Below are positions 9,601 to 22,356 of a stretch of DNA of 24,240 bases, piece by piece (positions within the stretch are counted from its first letter, which is position 1; every line of letters begins with the position of its first letter). Below the pieces are notes generated by a model that was not told where the DNA came from, did no database searches, and was given only the letters and a program-made list of their open reading frames with translations. The stretch is from a virus. Where the stretch lies: the IMG/VR virus record IMGVR_UViG_3300005533_000241, positions 1 through 24,240 of that record, one strand, 5' to 3'. Position numbers and translations under genes: made by a program.

Positions 9601-10914
9601 CTACGCCGCGATCATGTACGCGGGAACGTTATTGACTACCGTGGCCTGAAAAACCTCGTTCACGCCATTCTTGATGACGTCCTGATCTCCTGCGGTGAGT
9701 TGCCACGTCAGCTCGACTCCCTGCGACGCAAGCTGAGTGGTGAAGTAAATGCCAGGAAATTTCATCGAGAGCTGCTGAGAGGGCCCGCTGTTGATGTTGA
9801 TTTGAAGCTCTCGCGGAGTGTCGTTGATGAAAAGAGTGCGGATGTCATCGACATCCTTGGCCGCAACCTGCAATGTGCATGTTGCCCGCTGCTTTAGCAC
9901 CTTCATGAACGTGGCGAATAATCCGCCACCTGGAGCACGATGCGGAGACATGTCCATTGCCAGATGTACTTGCCATTCACGGACACGCTCTTTGATGCTG
10001 CTGAGAGCTGTGGTAGTCAGCGGCAACGCAGCTCCTGCAATGAGCCCGGCTGCAGGAAGCTGAAAAGGAGCACCGATGGCGTTGGGGGCGACATTCTGCT
10101 TCGTCTCCGTGCCTGTGGCGTTGGATAGATAACAATTCCAGCCAGTCGCTCCGGGCATGGCTGCAGGAGAGCCAACTTGCGGCACGCTGTTCGCTGGAAT
10201 GACGATTGACGCTTCAGGCCCGGCCAGAGTCTCGCCGGCGGCCGTCGTGTACGTGATTCTTACGAAATAGGTCGCGCCAGCCAGCGCCCCATTGACCACA
10301 GCGCTCAATACCGGCGCGAGCTGCGGAGAAGGAACGCCAATCAGAATATCCGTATCGGACGCCAGCAAATATTGAGGAACCGTTGTGGGAGGAAGCTGCA
10401 CAGCACCGTCGACAAACTTGCCGGACCCAACCATCTTGAATTGTGCCTGGGCTGTGCCGGTATCCTTGCCTGTAAGAACAAGGTCGGAGATCGCCAAGTC
10501 CGGCATCTGATAAAAGATGTCGTTGGTGTCCTGAAATAACAGGCTCGTAACGGGCATCTGATTTGAGGACTGCAGAAACTTGAACACGTGAGTAAACGGG
10601 CCAGCCCCACTCACAACCACCGATCCCATCGAAAAAGCCATCAGCCAGCCAGCAAGAAAATTGTCCAGATCCCAGGTGGCATCGAAGCCGGTCGTATATT
10701 GAGTGGGAATTCTCACTGTAGGCCACTGATGCCCTTTGTTGGCCAACTGCTCATCAGAAAAATACGTCTTTTGTATCTGAGCAAAGCTTGTGCCGGGAAT
10801 GCGAGGCCGTTGCGTGTAGCTGGCCAGCGCCACGGGCTGCTGCAGTGCCGCCTGTTTGTTGGGCGCAAGCGCCACGTTTCTGACTTCCAGTAAATGTTGC
10901 GGCTCGTAACTCAT
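9601..10914 (-). CDS. major tail (tube) protein with inserted Ig/FN3-like domain, 437 aa
   Basis: Position and sequence fit a siphovirus tail tube protein. Residues 1-195 and ~305-437 make up the tube part, with QWPTVRIPTQYTTGFDATWD, FNIDTP-like LFINDTPRELQININ and a typical C-terminal GVELTWQLTAGDQDV. Between them, residues ~198-298 form an inserted domain, GATYFVRITYTTAAGETLAGPEASIVIP and then GATGWNCYLSNATGTET in order, the pattern of fibronectin-III/Ig-like modules that decorate phage virions. Such a domain would project from each tube ring and could bind surfaces weakly. The start overlaps the stop of the upstream 89-residue gene (ATGA). There is no sheath gene next to it, which supports a non-contractile tail. 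The tube call rests on context as much as on sequence. Confidence 0.72.
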   Translation of the reverse strand: MSYEPQHLLEVRNVALAPNKQAALQQPVALASYTQRPRIPGTSFAQIQKTYFSDEQLANKGHQWPTVRIPTQYTTGFDATWDLDNFLAGWLMAFSMGSVVVSGAGPFTHVFKFLQSSNQMPVTSLLFQDTNDIFYQMPDLAISDLVLTGKDTGTAQAQFKMVGSGKFVDGAVQLPPTTVPQYLLASDTDILIGVPSPQLAPVLSAVVNGALAGATYFVRITYTTAAGETLAGPEASIVIPANSVPQVGSPAAMPGATGWNCYLSNATGTETKQNVAPNAIGAPFQLPAAGLIAGAALPLTTTALSSIKERVREWQVHLAMDMSPHRAPGGGLFATFMKVLKQRATCTLQVAAKDVDDIRTLFINDTPRELQININSGPSQQLSMKFPGIYFTTQLASQGVELTWQLTAGDQDVIKNGVNEVFQATVVNNVPAYMIAA

Positions 10915-11180
10915 GAATTACTCTCCCTTTTCTGCGCCTTGGCGGGCGCGATCTTTTCACTAGGTGGCTCTGGCTTTGGCGCGATCTCAAACAGCGGGTG
11001 TCCATCGATCTTCTGGCGGCTGAGCACGACAAGCCAGTCGAAGGCTCTGGTGACGCGCTGAGATTGACCCGGCGAGAAAGCAAATTCATGTCGGCCTTCA
11101 TGGACGCGCACCATCGTGCCACCGGACCATTTAGCACCGAACTCACTGAGTTGCACATCGACAAAATCTTCCCCTGACAT
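10911..11180 (-). CDS. small phage protein between gp37-like and tail tube genes, 89 aa
   Basis: Unassigned small protein in the tail-completion region. Residues 1-65 look like a compact beta-rich fold (DFVDVQLSEFGAKWSGGTMVRVHEG, AFDWLVVLSRQKIDGHPLFE), followed by a proline- and lysine-rich disordered tail (PKPEPPSEKIAPAKAQKRE). In Mu-like phages this slot holds a short gp38-like protein of unknown role. Two adjacent ATGs follow AGGAGG; the second (used) has 4-base spacing, the first would start at 11183. The stop overlaps the tail tube ATG. Real gene by ribosome site, coupling and density; function not known. Confidence 0.7.
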   Translation of the reverse strand: MSGEDFVDVQLSEFGAKWSGGTMVRVHEGRHEFAFSPGQSQRVTRAFDWLVVLSRQKIDGHPLFEIAPKPEPPSEKIAPAKAQKRESNS

Positions 11181-11189
11181 CATTCCTCC

Positions 11190-11644: not shown

Positions 11645-12115
11645 CTATTTCGCTCCTGTCTGCACGTACCGCTCTATCGCGGCCTTGATCTTGCCGGGAT
11701 CTTCAGGACGAACCACAAGAAAGGGACGGGCTGGAATTCTCACCTTACGTCCTCGTCCGGCCAATCCACCTTCCTGCTGGATGCGCGCATAAATAAGGTT
11801 GGAGCCAATACGCAGCACATTGCCGGAGATCACATAGGCCGCATTGTCTGTGACTGAGTTGCGCAGCCTGCCGCTCTGAATAAGGGTCTTTCGTCCGAGC
11901 CCGCCTTTGCCACGCTTCAGAGTTGCCGGAGACAGCGGCCGCCACGATCCCGGTGGAGATCCCTGGTCCTGAAAAGTGCGGACGATAGAGCTGCGCATGA
12001 TCTGGCCGATAATCTTCAATATGGGTTGCGGATTGAGCCGTTGATTGAAGTTGCGCAGAGCAATCTGCACCTGCTGATCGTTGATGGCTATGCCGATTGT
12101 AGGGATATAACTCAC
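11645..12115 (-). CDS. virion morphogenesis protein (Mu gpG / phage tail completion family), 156 aa
   Basis: The sequence matches the gpG/tail-completion S family: an N-terminal IAINDQQVQIALRNFNQRL helix, IGQIMRSSIVRTFQDQGSPPGSWRPLSPATL around residues 38-67, then a LIQSGRLRNSVTD motif, IGSNLIYARIQQEGG and finally RKVRIPARPFLVVRPED. In Mu, gpG is needed for virion completion and attaches at the neck. In Mu the gene precedes the protease gene, whereas here it lies after the DUF1320 gene, as an HK97-gp10-like tail-completion gene would in a siphovirus. The start is GTG, overlapping the upstream stop in a GTGA unit. High confidence for family. Confidence 0.85.
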   Translation of the reverse strand: MSYIPTIGIAINDQQVQIALRNFNQRLNPQPILKIIGQIMRSSIVRTFQDQGSPPGSWRPLSPATLKRGKGGLGRKTLIQSGRLRNSVTDNAAYVISGNVLRIGSNLIYARIQQEGGLAGRGRKVRIPARPFLVVRPEDPGKIKAAIERYVQTGAK

Positions 12116-12540
12116 ACGTACCCCGCTAGGTTGTCGTCGCTGAAGCGCTCAACGGTTTGTGTGGGTCTGACGTCTCCAGCTCCGGACTGCGGAGCGGCAG
12201 CTACGGGTTGATCGAGAGATGCCTTCCCTGAAGCCACGTCGCGAAGGAACTGCACCGCATAGTCGTAGGCTTCGCTTACGTCCTTCTTCATTTTCTTGCG
12301 GCGCTGATAAAGGAACCACTCGGCAATCGTGAGCGTAAGTCCTTTGACTTGGTTGGACGCCTGTAAAGGGATGGTGTATCGCTGACGGCAGTACGAGTCT
12401 ATCAATGCAGATGACTCATTCAAGATGTCGGAGACCATCACCGTGTTTACCTTCCCGGAGTTGGTGTCATCGGTCAACTGAACCAACTCCAGGGCGGTAA
12501 TACGGCGCGGCGACAGGTCGTCTTGTGTCGCGTAGGCCAT
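12112..12540 (-). CDS. DUF1320 family head-tail connector protein (Mu gp36-like), 142 aa
   Basis: Residues 1-25 (MAYATQDDLSPRRITALELVQLTDD) are the characteristic beginning of DUF1320/gp36 proteins, followed by a helical stretch with NESSALIDSYCRQRYTIPL and TIAEWFLYQRRKKM, and a variable Ala/Pro-rich C-terminus. These are helical adaptor proteins that form the connector between portal and tail. The ATG overlaps the TAA of the gp35-like gene by one base, and its own stop overlaps the gpG-like GTG. High confidence. Confidence 0.88.
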   Translation of the reverse strand: MAYATQDDLSPRRITALELVQLTDDTNSGKVNTVMVSDILNESSALIDSYCRQRYTIPLQASNQVKGLTLTIAEWFLYQRRKKMKKDVSEAYDYAVQFLRDVASGKASLDQPVAAAPQSGAGDVRPTQTVERFSDDNLAGYV

Positions 12541-12704
12541 TAGTCCTCCTTCACGACGCGCTGCAGAACCTCAGCGCCGATTGACGATACTTCCTGCTGC
12601 GTCAACTCAAGCACAGATCCAGCGGCATGATCCTCACCATCGCGGCGCAGTGGAAACAACAGGCGATAAGCATTGCGAGTTGATTGAGATTTCTCGTTAG
12701 CCAC
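12540..12704 (-). CDS. Mu gp35-like small protein, 54 aa
   Basis: A short gene in the gp35 position between the capsid region and DUF1320. The translation from GTG at 12704 is MANEKSQSTRN followed by a YRLLFPLRRDGEDH segment and a VLELTQQEVSSIG segment, which matches a small-domain pattern common in Mu-like phages (Y..L.PLR.DG....G..LELT..E). An AAAGGAG site lies 11 bases upstream, a little far. The open frame extends upstream to 12896, but that part overlaps the 3' end of the exported-protein gene and looks noncoding, so the short form is preferred. The stop TAA shares a base with the next ATG. Function in assembly is unknown. Confidence 0.7.
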   Translation of the reverse strand: MANEKSQSTRNAYRLLFPLRRDGEDHAAGSVLELTQQEVSSIGAEVLQRVVKED

Positions 12705-12748: not shown

Positions 12749-13222
12749 TTAGTTGAACAACAGGCGCACAGATGTAGTCGAGGCGTCCGTCTGAATACAC
12801 ACGTCCTGCCCGGACGGAACTTGCGCGCCAAGGTAGTACGTCTGCACAGGCGGATTCACAACCGGACCAAGCAGTACGGTTGTTCCTGTGCCGCAATTGG
12901 TTCCGGTGCCAAACTGGATGGTGAATGATCCGGCTGCGCCGGTTGATTTCTCCACTGCCACCGAACGAATGTAGGTCTGCCCCGTAGCTGGAGCGGCCAC
13001 TACACGAGTAAGGGTGGATGAGGCGACGGCAGGCGAAAGAATACTCAGGTCGCCGGTCTGAAGGATGTTCAGCCCTTGAGGGCTAGCGCCTGAGCCAATG
13101 AATCGCAGCTTGAGCAAGTTCTGCTCTCCAACTTGCTGCGCAATCACGTGGGCTGATGGAGCAGTCATCAATCCCACAATTACCGCTAAAACGACTACCA
13201 CCAAGATGGCGGCCTTTCTCAT
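12749..13222 (-). CDS. Sec-exported beta-rich protein within the head gene cluster, 157 aa
   Basis: The ATG at 13222 has a near-perfect AAAGGAGG site 7-8 bases upstream; the open frame continues to 13318 but that extension (MEVAENRQSC...) reads through an inverted repeat and is rejected. The N-terminus MRKAAILVVVVLAVIVGLMT followed by APSAHVIAQ is a clear signal peptide, with likely cleavage near residue 24. The mature ~130 residues are Ser/Thr/Gly-rich beta strands, with a GTGTNCGTGTTVLLGPV segment and a QDVCIQTDASTTSVRLLFN end; the two cysteines could form a disulfide outside the cytoplasm. The GTGTNCGTGT element resembles segments in metagenomic phage surface proteins as I recall. Head proteins are normally not exported, so this may be a late accessory protein acting in the envelope. 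Function unknown. Confidence 0.75.
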   Translation of the reverse strand: MRKAAILVVVVLAVIVGLMTAPSAHVIAQQVGEQNLLKLRFIGSGASPQGLNILQTGDLSILSPAVASSTLTRVVAAPATGQTYIRSVAVEKSTGAAGSFTIQFGTGTNCGTGTTVLLGPVVNPPVQTYYLGAQVPSGQDVCIQTDASTTSVRLLFN

Positions 13223-13357: not shown

Positions 13358-14326
13358 TCAAGCAACCGTGTTGCGTAGCAGATATGCGCTTATGTTCGAC
13401 GTGACCTGCTGGCCATAATAGAAGTGGACCGACAGTTCGTCGCTTTTCGCGCTGGCCGGAGTGAGCCTCGCAATCTCCGTACTGAATCCTCCCACCGTCC
13501 CCGGAGCGTTCTTCCAGACAAACGTCTTTCCGAACGATGGATCTTGCGGAGTAGGATTGGGTTGGGCGTAAGCAAGAATTGCATTCTTACCCCAGACGAA
13601 GTTCGAGTTGCCATTGACATCGATCTGTATGGCAGATGCCAAGACGACACGTGGCACTCCGAACACGGCTGCAAGATCATCGAGCGTGACTTGGCCGCCT
13701 TTGGTGTACACGAGCCGCTGCACAATGGCCGGATGCACACGGAGCTTCTGATACACCGGATCGCCGATGATCATCAGATTGGCTTCCTGGCCGATCTGCC
13801 TTATCTGGCTCTTAGCCGTCTCGACATCGGTAATTGGAGTGGAGTTTGCGGCATCACTCCACTGCGAACCACCGGCAAGCGTTACAACGTTCGTTGGCGC
13901 GTAACTCACCGGGTTGGTGGCAAGAGATGCGGCGCGCATTTCCTCGCGCAAAAACAGCTTGTCCAATATGGTCTGCGTTGCCCATTGCTCCAGATTGCCT
14001 GCAGAAAAGTTGGAACGCTCTTCGTCCGGAATCTTGCGGGCCAAGGCGTGGTCCGGGCAGAAATATCGGTTCTTCGACAGCGTCTGCTGGATGCCTTCGG
14101 CGGGCGATCCCGGGGCGCGAACGTCGTTTTCACGCACCATCTGGTTTTCACGGCCAAACAACCAATAGAAATCCGACTGTTCTTCGACTTCGACGCGCGG
14201 TAGAAGCAGCTCTGCGACCAGCGTGTTGTTCCGGTAGAGTTGGGCAAACTGACTTAAGGCGACATCGATCTTGCCCTGGACGGGGTTGACCATAGCGCCT
14301 GCAAAATTGATCGGGCGTGTTGCCAT
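13358..14326 (-). CDS. major capsid protein, 322 aa
   Basis: This is the shell protein, expected to have the HK97 fold, and it follows the protease/scaffold and cement genes as in Mu-like heads (Mu gpT position). Recognisable parts are NNTLVAELLLPRVEVEEQSDFYW near residue 34, a charged E-loop-like region (RENDVRAPGSPAEGIQ, residues ~63-78), ILDKLFLREEMRAASL in the spine-helix region (~118-133), LMIIGDPVYQKLRVHPAIVQRL (~184-205), and a beta-rich C-terminus with VHFYYGQQVTSNISAYLLRN. The length of about 320 residues is usual. The start at 14326 has AGGAGG 8 bases upstream; the frame is open to 14368 but the extra 14 residues place the start upstream of the ribosome site. Confidence 0.85.
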   Translation of the reverse strand: MATRPINFAGAMVNPVQGKIDVALSQFAQLYRNNTLVAELLLPRVEVEEQSDFYWLFGRENQMVRENDVRAPGSPAEGIQQTLSKNRYFCPDHALARKIPDEERSNFSAGNLEQWATQTILDKLFLREEMRAASLATNPVSYAPTNVVTLAGGSQWSDAANSTPITDVETAKSQIRQIGQEANLMIIGDPVYQKLRVHPAIVQRLVYTKGGQVTLDDLAAVFGVPRVVLASAIQIDVNGNSNFVWGKNAILAYAQPNPTPQDPSFGKTFVWKNAPGTVGGFSTEIARLTPASAKSDELSVHFYYGQQVTSNISAYLLRNTVA

Positions 14327-14347
14327 CTGCATTTCCTCCTGATAAAT

Positions 14348-18276: not shown

Positions 18277-19622
18277 GCGTACACGTGCGCCTGGCTCGAT
18301 GAGCTGGCAAGAAAATCGGTTGATAGATTGGGACCGGATGCGGCGGCGGCCGCCAGCGCCAGGGACCAAAATTCGTCCGCGTGTCCCTGTTCGGTACGAG
18401 CCGCGTCAAAACGAAAGTGTCCAGTCGTACTGGTGTAGCGCTTTACCGCGTTAATCGAGCGTCGCAACCCGGGGCATGAAGCGATCCGGATGCGTCTCTC
18501 CTCGAACAATCGCTTCAGGTCGGTAGCCATCGCCTCTTTGTTCTCTATGTTGAAGACGACTTCTTCGACTTTGGTCCCATGCTTAAGTCGCAGATCTTCG
18601 GCCAACTGAGCGCCGATACCCGTAGCGTCGATGCAAGAGCGCCGAGCGCGGCGGGTTACCGGCTCGATGAGATCGAATTGCGCGCCAAAAGGAGTGCGTT
18701 CCATCACGTTCATGCGGCGCATCCACAACACGTCGCCAACCTTTTCAAGCGCGGTATCTACCGTGCGATCTTTTTTGCGGCCAATATCGACGCCTTCATA
18801 GATGTGGCCAACCAAATTCTCTACAGCCAGATCGACAGTAGCATCGGCACTCTCGCAGGAGACCACCAACTCCATGGGGATGTAGTTCTGTGCATCAGCA
18901 AGAAATGCGCAGCAGTACTCCTGCAGCCACGTGTCCTCATCTCCTGCAGCTTCTCGGAGAGCGGCAACGTCGACCGGACACCCTTCTTCCACGGCCGAGT
19001 AAATATCCAGCCAATGAACAGACCAGATTCCCTTCGTCCAGCGGCGCTCTTTCATGCCGCCGAGAGGATCGACACCAGCGGCACGGGCGATGTCCCAATA
19101 TTTCCCCGATTGGCCGTTGGGGGTGGAGATCACCTCAAGGCTGTGGCCACGGCTGATGATCGCCATAGCGCCGCGCCAGATCTTCATGGCGTCCCTGTGG
19201 AACGCGAACTCATCTAAAACCACATCGCCGGAGAAGCCGCGAATCGTGTCCGGATTGGCGGGCATGGCGATGATGCGCGATCCGTTGTGATGAAACGTGA
19301 TCTGATACGCCTTTTCCGTCGTATCCGGAAACTCGATTTCCTCAAAACTGAAGGCCTCTTTCACCGCTTGCAGATGGACTTTGCAGTATTCGATGGCCTC
19401 CTTCGATTGACGCTCCGACGCCGATATCCATACGGTCGTGCCTTTGGTAGCAAGACGACGGCGCACATGGCGCAAAGTGGTTGAAAATGTCAGGCCGGTC
19501 TGGCGGCCTTTCACCATCAGCTTGAATCGAGACTCATCCTGTATCCATCTCTTCTGGTAGGCGTACAGCACAACCAACGCCATCAGCGTGGCCAGCACGC
19601 CAGCTTTTTTTCTAGCGCTCAC
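18273..19622 (-). CDS. terminase large subunit (Mu gp28-like), 449 aa
   Basis: The ATPase part shows a Walker A-like KGRQTGLTFSTT (residues ~38-49, a degenerate form as in Mu-type terminases), a Walker B VVLDEF (134-139) and a coupling motif EVISTPNG (163-170). The C-terminal nuclease part has EGVDIGRKKDRT and SCIDATGIGAQLAEDL, with the metal-binding aspartates. The enzyme packages DNA through the portal and cuts it. Two GTG starts are possible: 19622 is preferred because GGAG lies 7 bases upstream and it forms a GTGA overlap with the endolysin stop; 19628 would add two residues with a ribosome site almost touching it. High confidence. Confidence 0.92.
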   Translation of the reverse strand: MSARKKAGVLATLMALVVLYAYQKRWIQDESRFKLMVKGRQTGLTFSTTLRHVRRRLATKGTTVWISASERQSKEAIEYCKVHLQAVKEAFSFEEIEFPDTTEKAYQITFHHNGSRIIAMPANPDTIRGFSGDVVLDEFAFHRDAMKIWRGAMAIISRGHSLEVISTPNGQSGKYWDIARAAGVDPLGGMKERRWTKGIWSVHWLDIYSAVEEGCPVDVAALREAAGDEDTWLQEYCCAFLADAQNYIPMELVVSCESADATVDLAVENLVGHIYEGVDIGRKKDRTVDTALEKVGDVLWMRRMNVMERTPFGAQFDLIEPVTRRARRSCIDATGIGAQLAEDLRLKHGTKVEEVVFNIENKEAMATDLKRLFEERRIRIASCPGLRRSINAVKRYTSTTGHFRFDAARTEQGHADEFWSLALAAAAASGPNLSTDFLASSSSQAHVYA

Positions 19623-20059
19623 TGCCACTCTCCAGTCTCAATCTGCTTGGCAATGCGAATCGCCCTTCCGCCAACCTGCTCAGCCCAGGATGATTTCAAC
19701 AGTTGCTGCGCTGCAAGCGTAAAGTGGCCGGATTCAATGGCAGCAAGAGCTTTCCGGAATTTGAGTAGTCCTTTCAGTCCAAGATTGAAAGACATGTTCA
19801 CCAGAGCTGATTGCCGGGAATCATCAAGGCGAGACACCCATGGCAGGGCCGCGGCCAGAGCATTGAAGTGCCTGCTGATGTCGTTGCACAGAAGGGATTG
19901 AGCCTCATCTTGTGTGATCCCAACCGACTCAAGGTTGCGCCCGTATCCGATTGTTAGGACTCCCCTAGAATCCCTGTAGGGCTTCAAGCGCAGACCTTCA
20001 TCTCTGGCAATCTGCGCAATCACGTTGCTCGACTTGAGTTGTTGCGATTGATCCTTCAT
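19619..20059 (-). CDS. endolysin, GH24 (T4-type) lysozyme, 146 aa
   Basis: The catalytic triad of T4-type lysozymes is visible: Glu21 in RDEGLRLKPYRD, Asp30 and Thr36 in GVLTIGYGRNL (E-X8-D-X5-T). Further family features are SLLCNDISRHFNAL, a SRQSALVNMSFNLGLKGLLKF segment and AEQVGGRAIRIAKQIETG at the end. It cleaves peptidoglycan to release progeny. There is no signal peptide or N-terminal anchor, so it needs a holin to reach the wall. The gene is embedded between small and large terminase genes: TAATG overlap upstream and GTGA overlap downstream. In Mu the lysozyme gene lies further upstream. High confidence for function. Confidence 0.93.
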   Translation of the reverse strand: MKDQSQQLKSSNVIAQIARDEGLRLKPYRDSRGVLTIGYGRNLESVGITQDEAQSLLCNDISRHFNALAAALPWVSRLDDSRQSALVNMSFNLGLKGLLKFRKALAAIESGHFTLAAQQLLKSSWAEQVGGRAIRIAKQIETGEWQ

Positions 20060-21034: not shown

Positions 21035-21430
21035 TCAACCTCTCGTTCTATGGTGATTCTTCAACTCATCTATCGAACTGCGCAGATCGTCTTGCGACTC
21101 GATTACGCGCTCTAACTGGCTTCCTACATAACTGAGCAACCGGCGCTGCTCTGTCCGTTCGCGGTCGTCTTTATCGGTTATCGACCGCACAGCATCCGCA
21201 AGCTCCTGCTGCGATGAGGCCATCTTCTGTCCGACATCGAGTGCCTTGCCGAATCTGCTATCGACCAGCACCGCGATAAGGCCAGTGAACAACCACGCCG
21301 GACCGAAATGCTGCAACGTTTCGAGAAGCAACCGTGGCTCTTTCGTTGCCAGCGCCAGGGCAACTCCAGCACCAACCCCGGCACCGCCCAGCAGGAGATT
21401 TTTTGCCGACATCGCCCTTTCGACCGTCAT
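21035..21430 (-). CDS. membrane-anchored coiled-coil protein (DUF2730-like position), 131 aa
   Basis: The N-terminus holds two short hydrophobic stretches (LLLGGAGVGAGVALALAT and AWLFTGLIAVLVDS), followed by a charged, mostly helical part (GQKMASSQQELADAVRSI to the C-terminus) that looks like a coiled coil facing the cytoplasm or periplasm. DUF2730-type proteins of Mu-like phages have this plan (membrane helix plus coiled coil) in the same place before the winged-helix gene. A lysis role (holin or spanin-like) is possible but not shown. The frame is open to 21541, but that part is the palindromic patch and is rejected; ATG 21430 or 21412 are the candidates, and 21430 overlaps the stop of the upstream open frame as ATGA. 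Confidence 0.62.
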   Translation of the reverse strand: MTVERAMSAKNLLLGGAGVGAGVALALATKEPRLLLETLQHFGPAWLFTGLIAVLVDSRFGKALDVGQKMASSQQELADAVRSITDKDDRERTEQRRLLSYVGSQLERVIESQDDLRSSIDELKNHHRTRG

Positions 21431-22356
21431 GCCACCCCCAAAATCTGACTTTTGGGGGTGGAACCGGGTTTTAAAGTGCCTTCGTGCCATGGCACGAAGG
21501 CTGTGTGCCATGGCACGAATTCGGGGAAGGTATCTGGACACCCCTCAAACGCTCTTAGGGCGTTTAAACGCGAAATTCGGCCAGTACCAAGTTGGGTATT
21601 GACTTTGCGAGATTCAGAGTGGTTAAAGGCAGCCAATACTAGCTGTGCGTTGGCTCGTGGGCGGCCGCCTGCAGCTTCTGCAGAAACGCCTGCACTCTGG
21701 CTTGAGCCGCTGAGTTGATCTGAGATGCTTTCTCGATCAACTGTGCATCCGACAGGCCAGACTCCGCTCGAAGCGTATGCACGAGTTCGGTCGCGTTGGT
21801 CACGGTTTGCACAGCCAGATCGAGCGCTTGCACGATACGGTCTTGGTTCACTGATCACCTCACTGGTTGTTTTCACGGCATTGACGGCCGCGTTGATTGT
21901 TTGAATTAGAAGAGGCACCGACGCAAAAGCTCCGTTGAGCCGCTGCTGCGCCGCCGGATTCTTCACTCCCAGGACACCCTGAGCATTGAGCCTTGCAAGG
22001 CCAGCAGATAGTTCGCCCACCCAAGCGATGACTTGCTGCTTGTTAGAGACATCGACACTATTGAGCGTTTTGATGTGGTCGATAAATGTTTGATTGAGGC
22101 TGATGGCATTGTTGGCTGCGACGCTGGCCGCAATCGACTCGTCCACCGAAATCAGATTTGCGGCATACACTGCCTCAATCTCTTTCTCGCCGGCATCGAG
22201 AATGGCTGCCATCTTGTACGCGGCTGAATCGATCTGGCGCAGGGGAGTCTGCGGAGATGGCGTCACCGGAACCTGAGTTTGAGTATTGCTATGTCCAGCG
22301 CAACTTATGAGCACTGCGCAGAACGCGATCATGACGACGAGAAGGGCTACTTTCAT
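21427..22356 (-). CDS. lipoprotein; open frame runs through the next gene, 309 aa as read
   Basis: The start is certain: AAAGGAGGG lies just before the ATG, which overlaps the stop of the 54-residue gene. Residues 1-19 are a lipoprotein signal with lipobox LISC (Cys19), so the product is probably exported and lipid-anchored. Residues ~40-172 are helical and Ala/Asn-rich (SAAYKMAAILDAGEKEIEAVYAANLI, FIDHIKTLNSVDVSNKQQVIAWVGEL, AQQRLNGAFASVPLLIQTINAAVNAVK). After about residue 172 (21840) the composition changes sharply to Arg/Ser-rich, because the frame then runs out of phase through the 70-residue gene and the palindromic patch. The biological C-terminus may be near residue 172 if a one-base change removed a stop. 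Function unknown. Confidence 0.7.
   Translation of the reverse strand: MKVALLVVMIAFCAVLISCAGHSNTQTQVPVTPSPQTPLRQIDSAAYKMAAILDAGEKEIEAVYAANLISVDESIAASVAANNAISLNQTFIDHIKTLNSVDVSNKQQVIAWVGELSAGLARLNAQGVLGVKNPAAQQRLNGAFASVPLLIQTINAAVNAVKTTSEVISEPRPYRASARSGCANRDQRDRTRAYASSGVWPVGCTVDRESISDQLSGSSQSAGVSAEAAGGRPRANAQLVLAAFNHSESRKVNTQLGTGRISRLNALRAFEGCPDTFPEFVPWHTAFVPWHEGTLKPGSTPKSQILGVA
21432..21461. repeat. perfect 12-bp hairpin before the coiled-coil gene
   Basis: CCACCCCCAAAA (21432-21443) pairs perfectly with 21450-21461 around a 6-base loop (TCTGAC). It ends one base from the ATG at 21430, so in mRNA it would cover the ribosome-binding area of the coiled-coil gene. The run of four A/T pairs at the loop side and lack of a tract outside do not fit a terminator on the minus strand. 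Confidence 0.6.
21478..21519. repeat. palindromic repeat pair with GTGCCATGGCAC cores
   Basis: A perfect 24-bp palindrome (21478-21501) and, 4 bases on, a second 12-bp palindrome (21505-21516) share the 15-base direct repeat GTGCCATGGCACGAA (21484-21498 and 21505-21519). Another perfect 12-bp palindrome, GCGTTTAAACGC, lies at 21560-21571. The patch 21432-21638 has no gene of its own. From memory, GTGCCATGGCAC-type palindromes recur between genes of acidobacteria, so this may be a dispersed REP-like element; that needs a genome search. Confidence 0.65.
21639..21851 (-). CDS. small helical protein following the lipoprotein, 70 aa
   Basis: The GTG start at 21851 has GAGG(TGATCA) six bases upstream, a good ribosome site that lies inside the lipoprotein open frame. 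The product (MNQDRIVQALDLAVQTVTNATELVHTL, then LSDAQLIEKASQINSAAQARVQAFLQ) looks like two or three amphipathic helices and ends in AAAHEPTHS. Its codon pattern is protein-like, unlike the lipoprotein frame across the same bases. Both genes would be made from the same mRNA. Family not recognised. Confidence 0.68.
   Translation of the reverse strand: MNQDRIVQALDLAVQTVTNATELVHTLRAESGLSDAQLIEKASQINSAAQARVQAFLQKLQAAAHEPTHS

Follow-up and report, generated by a model that had tools for sequence, protein, structure and literature searches.

A moron-like gene for a probably exported protein lies between the capsid and connector genes in a clade of uncultured tailed phages

The window analysed here is an entire virus contig of 24,240 bases (record G000), and the gene under study, which we call X, occupies positions 12749..13222 of its minus strand, with an ATG at 13222 and a stop codon at 12751-12749. 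The original prediction placed a gene at these coordinates, and a 157-codon open reading frame is indeed found there, while the plus strand of the same interval carries six stops. The perfect ribosome site ascribed to X was also recovered, in the form of the Shine-Dalgarno sequence AAAGGAGG (13237-13230, minus) 7 nt ahead of the ATG, and so was the placement of the gene, with the major capsid protein (MCP) gene on one side and gp35/gp36-like genes on the other. The 157-aa product, predicted to be exported, begins with MRKAAILVVVVLAVIVGLMTAPSAHVIA and continues after the putative cleavage point with QQVGEQN. Upstream of X, the MCP gene (13358..14332, minus; start codon picked by eye) matches phrog_1005 at E 3e-73 and Phage_cap_E (PF03864), and is itself preceded by a phrog_673 capsid-type gene. 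Downstream, the genes follow in the order gp35-like frame, gp36 (PF07030), Phage_tail_S and gp37-like. The gp35-like frame (12540..12704, minus; 57 aa, GTG start picked by eye) is named from its position and has no family match in PHROG or Pfam; the Mu gp36-like head-tail adaptor (12112..12540, minus) is identified by PF07030 (E 2.1e-28) and phrog_195. Two further minus-strand genes, coding for proteins of 437 aa (9601-10914) and 90 aa (10911-11183), have no PHROG or Pfam match at E<=0.001 and are conserved throughout the X clade; judged by position they are probably the major tail protein and its partner. A lysozyme-like ORF, named by eye, is situated far from X at 19619-20059.

Profile and alignment scans of the viral_contigs set with successively wider X alignments returned 4, 5, 8, 11 and 11 contigs, showing that the search had saturated with relatives of X in 11 other viral contigs. 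Window included, these resolve into eight distinct sequences: the window (=L002), L003, L004 (=L005), L006, L027, L028 (=L034), L033 and L035, the others being 59-81% identical to X of the window. Here L005 was merged into L004 on the agreement of their tblastn matches, and the L027 group takes in the contigs of L031 and L032, which give the same tblastn match and were not separately aligned. The slot is the same in all eight, after the MCP gene and before gp36, and a gp35-like frame follows X in six of them, none being found in L004 and L006. In the comparison with L003 the dN/dS of X is 0.06, which identifies X as a real, selected gene; values of 0.06-0.19 were obtained in the five of seven pairs with finite dS and are rough, as dS is near saturation. 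Relative to the window, X and MCP are 81% and 82% identical in L003, 71% and 72% in L004, and 66% and 68% in L006, whereas in L027, L028, L033 and L035 the identity of X drops to 59-61% with MCP at 68-70%. X therefore evolves at about the capsid rate in the nearer relatives and faster in the farther ones.

Not every related phage carries the gene. A portal search of the viral contigs added L025-L030, among them L029, whose MCP and portal are 66% and 62% identical to those of the window and which has neither X nor gp35, leaving about 120 nt between the MCP stop and the gp36 start. This stretch (8413-8533 of L029) still holds the hairpin element described below. L029 also gives no match to the 437-aa protein of the window, so its tail module is probably different. 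L030 is too distant to be judged for X (portal 25%, gp36 29%, MCP unmatched), and an MCP search for further relatives gave no new contigs. Among the ten G records searched, the X profile matched four; G001 and G002, with MCPs 42% identical to that of the window, gave no X profile match at E<=0.1 in 26.6 kb and 33.7 kb of sequence, respectively, and G003, G004 and G010, which match neither X nor MCP, were left out of the loss count. The slot between MCP and gp35 in G001 is taken by a 91-aa collagen-like Gly-X-Y ORF (L144, reverse complement 1311-1586) that is followed by a gp35-like frame, while G002 has the gp35-like frame alone. Because the close relative L029 and the distant G001 and G002 lack it, X is accessory. 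It thus shows the patchy presence between core genes by which morons are recognised, and can be described as an addition of this clade to a slot with varying occupants. Searches of cultured phages by tblastn gave no match for X, for its C-terminal part or for the mature parts of L028 and L035, and pattern scans of GTDB genome contigs, with a reach limited to close relatives, confirmed no copy of X.

The gap between MCP and X holds a conserved noncoding element, GGAGGTCGC-GGAGAATCGCCAGAGC with a hairpin (13319-13261, minus), which is not part of X and includes a 16-mer (13307-13292) and a GC-rich hairpin (13290-13261) on the same strand. It can be written as AAAGGAGGTCGCGGAGAATCGCCAGAGC plus hairpin, or in a longer form as GGAGGTCGCGGAGAATCGCCAGAGC followed by the GC-rich hairpin, and its consensus is AATTCGG.GAGGAAAGGAGGTCGCGGAGAATCGCCAGAGC with a hairpin of varying sequence. 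The element contains a perfect Shine-Dalgarno sequence lacking a start codon, as well as several GGA motifs. As it is kept in the X-less L029, it is not a leader of X. Morons were originally defined as having a promoter and a terminator of their own, and this hairpin ahead of X is found in L029 as well, where X is absent. Among the X-bearing contigs, the 16-mer of L035 carries a one-base insertion, the element is interrupted in L006, and L028 has the hairpin alone. Exact 16-mer matches occur in 102 stretches of viral_contigs, and all loci gathered (the window, L004, L025, L029, L033 and L040-L135 being those with the element) gave 91 distinct 16-mer contexts, 90 of them with enough flank. At least 8 of the 12 letters of AAAGGAGGTCGC stand upstream of the 16-mer in 74 of these 90 (0.3% expected by chance); the other 16 include real members with an offset (L004, L029) and probable chance matches in coding regions. 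The 70 nt after the element fold better than the shuffle mean in 70/74 contexts, the first 60 nt after it do so relative to the average of six windows taken further downstream in 68/72, and perfect stems of at least 7 pairs starting within 14 nt are present in 61/72, compared with 45/72 in the best of three control windows. The hairpins have 54 different stem starts, and T-runs follow the element in 16/74. After nine loci had been dropped as chance-like or coding, the flank scan took in 49 upstream proteins (of 51 listed) and 48 downstream ones (of 55 listed), which are diverse and include capsid, endolysin, terminase, tail and portal families; the larger flanking ORF is on the strand of the element in 48/60 cases upstream and 45/59 downstream. 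Rfam gave no match in the window stretch at E<=1, nor in 15 loci at gathering scores, and a 33-nt query against cultured phages and plasmids found only partial, chance-level matches. Dozens of unrelated uncultured phages have the element next to late genes of diverse kinds, and we read it as a putative, unannotated late-operon signal (terminator, processing or translation-linked) that may be shared by many uncultured soil phages.

The N-terminus of X is predicted to be a Sec signal peptide (residues 1-28, 13139..13222, minus) ending in HVIA-QQ, where the hyphen marks the cut. To score such signals we used our own heuristic, which looks for a 12-residue uncharged window of mean hydropathy >=2, a net positive n-region and a subsequent [AVSTLIG]x[AGS] site. 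Within the window, X and a lipoprotein-like ORF are the only 2 of 137 ORFs of at least 60 aa that pass it. Composition shuffles of X pass in 1145 of 20000 trials (5.7%). Applied to one sequence, the test is therefore of moderate strength only, and it is the conservation of the signal that carries the claim of export. All eight distinct homologues pass, with predicted signals of 28-38 residues, and all eight have the cleavage-site motif [VA]xA-QQ, with V or A at -3 and A at -1. Moreover, the signal is 29-64% identical to that of the window and the mature part 64-85%, and such drift beside a constrained mature part is as expected of a working signal peptide. The signal peptide of the original prediction is therefore well supported by the sequences, and homologues lacking it, which would have spoken against that prediction, were sought and none was found among the eight, each having an SPase I-like site. 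Sec export of X is very likely on this evidence, and from the same sequences we infer translocation and cleavage. None of the eight homologues has a lipobox Cys after the signal (Ala-Gln-Gln stands there instead), and X has no membrane anchor other than the signal. The second signal-bearing ORF (21427-22356, minus) has a start, MKVALLVVMIAFCAVLISC-AG, that resembles a lipobox; it has relatives of about 30% identity in L025 and L028, and in its 3' part it shares sequence with a different frame (21035-21541), which may point to a frameshift. An ORF at the contig edge (23749-24240, minus) has a signal-like start (MKNTFLVGMFLLRCMIGFAQP) and fails the heuristic.

The mature part of X (12752..13138, minus; 129 aa) is predicted to form a beta-sandwich. 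Its length is 129 aa in seven of the eight homologues and 131 in L028, and every homologue has exactly two mature cysteines at matching places, the invariant C110 (12895-12893, minus) and C142 (12799-12797, minus). These fit the disulfide that had been suggested earlier, of which the bond itself stays a prediction. A first AF2 model reached pLDDT 55 and a second, built with 6 sequences, a mean pLDDT of 61.8, which is low confidence; in both, the signal forms a helix at the N-terminus, followed by a disordered region and then by a sandwich of seven strands at about residues 72-156, and in this low-confidence form the second lends support to the earlier description of the mature part as beta-rich. 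Foldseek against the PDB returned no match to the X model at E<=0.001; between 5e-3 and 1e-2 it listed the BC2L-C lectin, the Sf6 needle knob and the KHP40 trimeric cement protein (7dou_4, E 7.7e-3 with the pLDDT 61.8 model). VIA-align aligned the second model with plant nucleoplasmin (7vrr; Z 8.7, 87 aligned, 2.5 A), CBM35 (3zm8; Z 7.7, 94 aligned, 2.7 A), KHP30 cement (7dn2_1; Z 7.5, 100 aligned, 3.8 A, again at pLDDT 61.8) and the HFTV1 turret (Z 6.9, 89 aligned, 3.3 A), and the first with CBM35 3zm8 (Z 8.8, 94 aligned, 2.6 A), nucleoplasmins (Z 7.8, 84 aligned, 2.7 A), a Klebsiella phage baseplate protein (Z 7.7, 92 aligned, 2.9 A) and the lambda tail tip (Z 7.6, 97 aligned, 2.8 A). Both models thus match jelly-roll sandwiches of a generic kind (nucleoplasmin, CBM and C1q as well as tail and capsid domains) with scores in the range that the aligner flags as possibly a common arrangement, and for this reason we describe the mature part, at low confidence, as a jelly-roll-like sandwich and claim no fold family. 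Of the 13 BFVD matches at E<=0.001, nine are viral proteins of 100-147 aa without a named function. Another BFVD match is a 273-aa protein of Rhodococcus phage Finch, presumably, from its length only, SEA_FINCH_33, the start of which would not be signal-like.

Sequence families gave nothing comparable. In Pfam the best score for X of the window was DUF2808 with 13.6 bits against a cut-off of 25.3, PHROG and NCBIfam had nothing above cut-off or convincing for any X member (best E 0.034 and 0.016), and PADLOC returned no match to the 8 members at E<=0.1. PDB sequence searches listed TCR chains (E 0.02-0.07), rejected as chance, and type IV pilin (E 0.06-0.18), rejected as the match straddles the signal and X lacks what we take to be the prepilin motif. 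X is thus an orphan family, without a homologue of known function in the searched sets. We also looked at what cultured phages with related capsids have in this place, using 11 annotated phages from 103 records with a capsid match (a twelfth had no annotation). Of 13 MCP-adjacent gene products, one passes the signal heuristic, that of Curvibacter phage TJ1, and this is probably a hydrophobic strand of a gp35-like protein. The expectation that only cytoplasmic virion proteins are encoded here is therefore broadly right, with 12 of the 13 products failing the heuristic.

Taken together, X is a moron-like accessory protein encoded by a single clade of uncultured tailed phages from soil. Our preferred reading, to which we give slightly less than an even chance, is that of a late, exported and probably disulfide-stapled accessory protein in the envelope of the infected cell, most plausibly with an anti-superinfection role. 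X would be made late, together with the capsid proteins, and be taken across the inner membrane by Sec; signal peptidase I would cut it after Ala28, and the mature part would fold in the periplasm into a small jelly-roll domain with a C110-C142 disulfide. By analogy, it may then act on the envelope of a cell that is already infected and block the adsorption or DNA entry of further phages, or keep progeny off the host receptor. In favour of this reading are the signal in 8/8 homologues, drifting much faster than the mature part, the constant MCP-gp35/gp36 slot of an accessory gene and the two cysteines of every mature form. A superinfection or receptor task appears most plausible by analogy with exported superinfection-exclusion proteins: those that block DNA injection, namely HK97 gp15, TP-J34 Ltp, Tuc2009 and P22 SieA, are described in PMC10883804 as membrane proteins or lipoproteins. 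Likewise, SPP1 has a moron ORF (14) between its capsid and head-completion genes, according to PMC6316719. Against the reading, X has no lipobox, extra anchor, PADLOC match or homologue with a known function, and in the nearer relatives its conservation matches that of the capsid, whereas exclusion proteins would in general be expected to diverge. Such capsid-like conservation fits a virion role as well or better.

One such role would be that of an exported capsid decoration, in which X is stockpiled and oxidised (disulfide) in the periplasm and coats finished capsids at lysis. We consider this rather unlikely. The gene adjoins that of the MCP and keeps its pace in the nearer relatives, the mature part has a fixed length, and the model matches include the KHP40/KHP30 trimeric cement and the HFTV1 turret, along with the nine small unnamed viral proteins in BFVD; yet model confidence is low, plant nucleoplasmins, CBMs and lectins score equal or better, KHP is not among the best 50 matches listed for the first model, and a capsid-type gene (phrog_673) already stands ahead of MCP. 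The collagen-like ORF in the G001 slot recalls gp12 of SPP1, a dispensable and collagen-like capsid accessory that attaches to capsid sites exposed on expansion (PMC6316719), and Soc and gpD trimerise on capsids (PMC7602432). Decoration proteins can thus bind finished capsids, and coating after lysis is therefore physically possible. However, a limited literature search, including passages of PMC5567305 and PMC5735904, brought up no decoration protein of a tailed phage that bears a Sec signal, and by term search 'periplasm' and 'secret' are absent from the decoration review PMC7602432. If true, an exported decoration would mean that virions are assembled in two steps, one in the cytoplasm and one outside it.

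Alternatively, X might be a virion or assembly protein that is cytoplasmic or anchored by an uncleaved N-terminus, its signal-like stretch serving assembly. Its location in the head operon and the MCP-like rate in nearer relatives would suit this; the SPase I-type motif in 8/8 homologues with a freely drifting hydrophobic stretch is instead the pattern of a cleaved signal, and the two invariant cysteines suit an oxidising compartment, making this alternative improbable. X might also be an exported lysis aid or an envelope-modifying, carbohydrate-binding protein, suggested by the CBM35/CBM6/CBM36 and BC2L-C lectin entries in the fold lists, CBM35 3zm8 included; but X belongs to no catalytic family and is far from the lysozyme-like ORF, and CBM-like sandwiches are common matches for any small jelly roll, so that we think it quite improbable. 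Finally, a non-functional X, in which the ORF is spurious or decaying and its hydrophobic start is due to chance, would accord with the shuffles that pass the heuristic but is already contradicted by conservation, given eight distinct intact homologues, low dN/dS wherever measurable and a strong ribosome site, and is extremely improbable.

The envelope accessory that we favour can be set beside several known systems. In Mu/B3-like phages, the gp35-like gene after MCP occupies the slot that X has here, whereas X comes on top of a separate gp35-like frame in six of the eight homologues and, unlike nearly all slot products of the annotated cultured relatives, carries a signal. The KHP30/KHP40 cement proteins and the lambda gpD group resemble X in being small, beta-rich and encoded beside MCP, with a weak fold match to KHP cement; this match is not specific, however, and capsid binding by X is a hypothesis. 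We know of no export signal in these cement and gpD-type proteins. Secreted phage accessory proteins are mostly treated as products of lysogeny genes that lie outside the virion operon, and X would be a secreted-type protein locked in the head operon that keeps pace with the capsid among the nearer relatives. TP-J34 Ltp and Aquarius gp41 are, like X, small phage proteins with a signal sequence that act outside the cytoplasm, but X lacks the lipobox of Ltp-type lipoproteins and is a predicted beta-sandwich, whereas Ltp has HTH-type domains (PMC11480721). Moron genes in structural operons, such as SPP1 ORF 14 and HK97 gp15, are similarly non-core and inserted in the late head/tail order, and HK97 gp15 is reported to act at the envelope; X differs from them in being of a secreted type with no anchor beyond the signal and with capsid-like conservation in nearer relatives, and it has no sequence similarity to any named family among those searched. 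Whether X guards the envelope late in infection or is a virion part that is exported is a choice open to testing. Accessory proteins encoded within the structural operons of phages are a known kind, and X is an orphan family of that kind.
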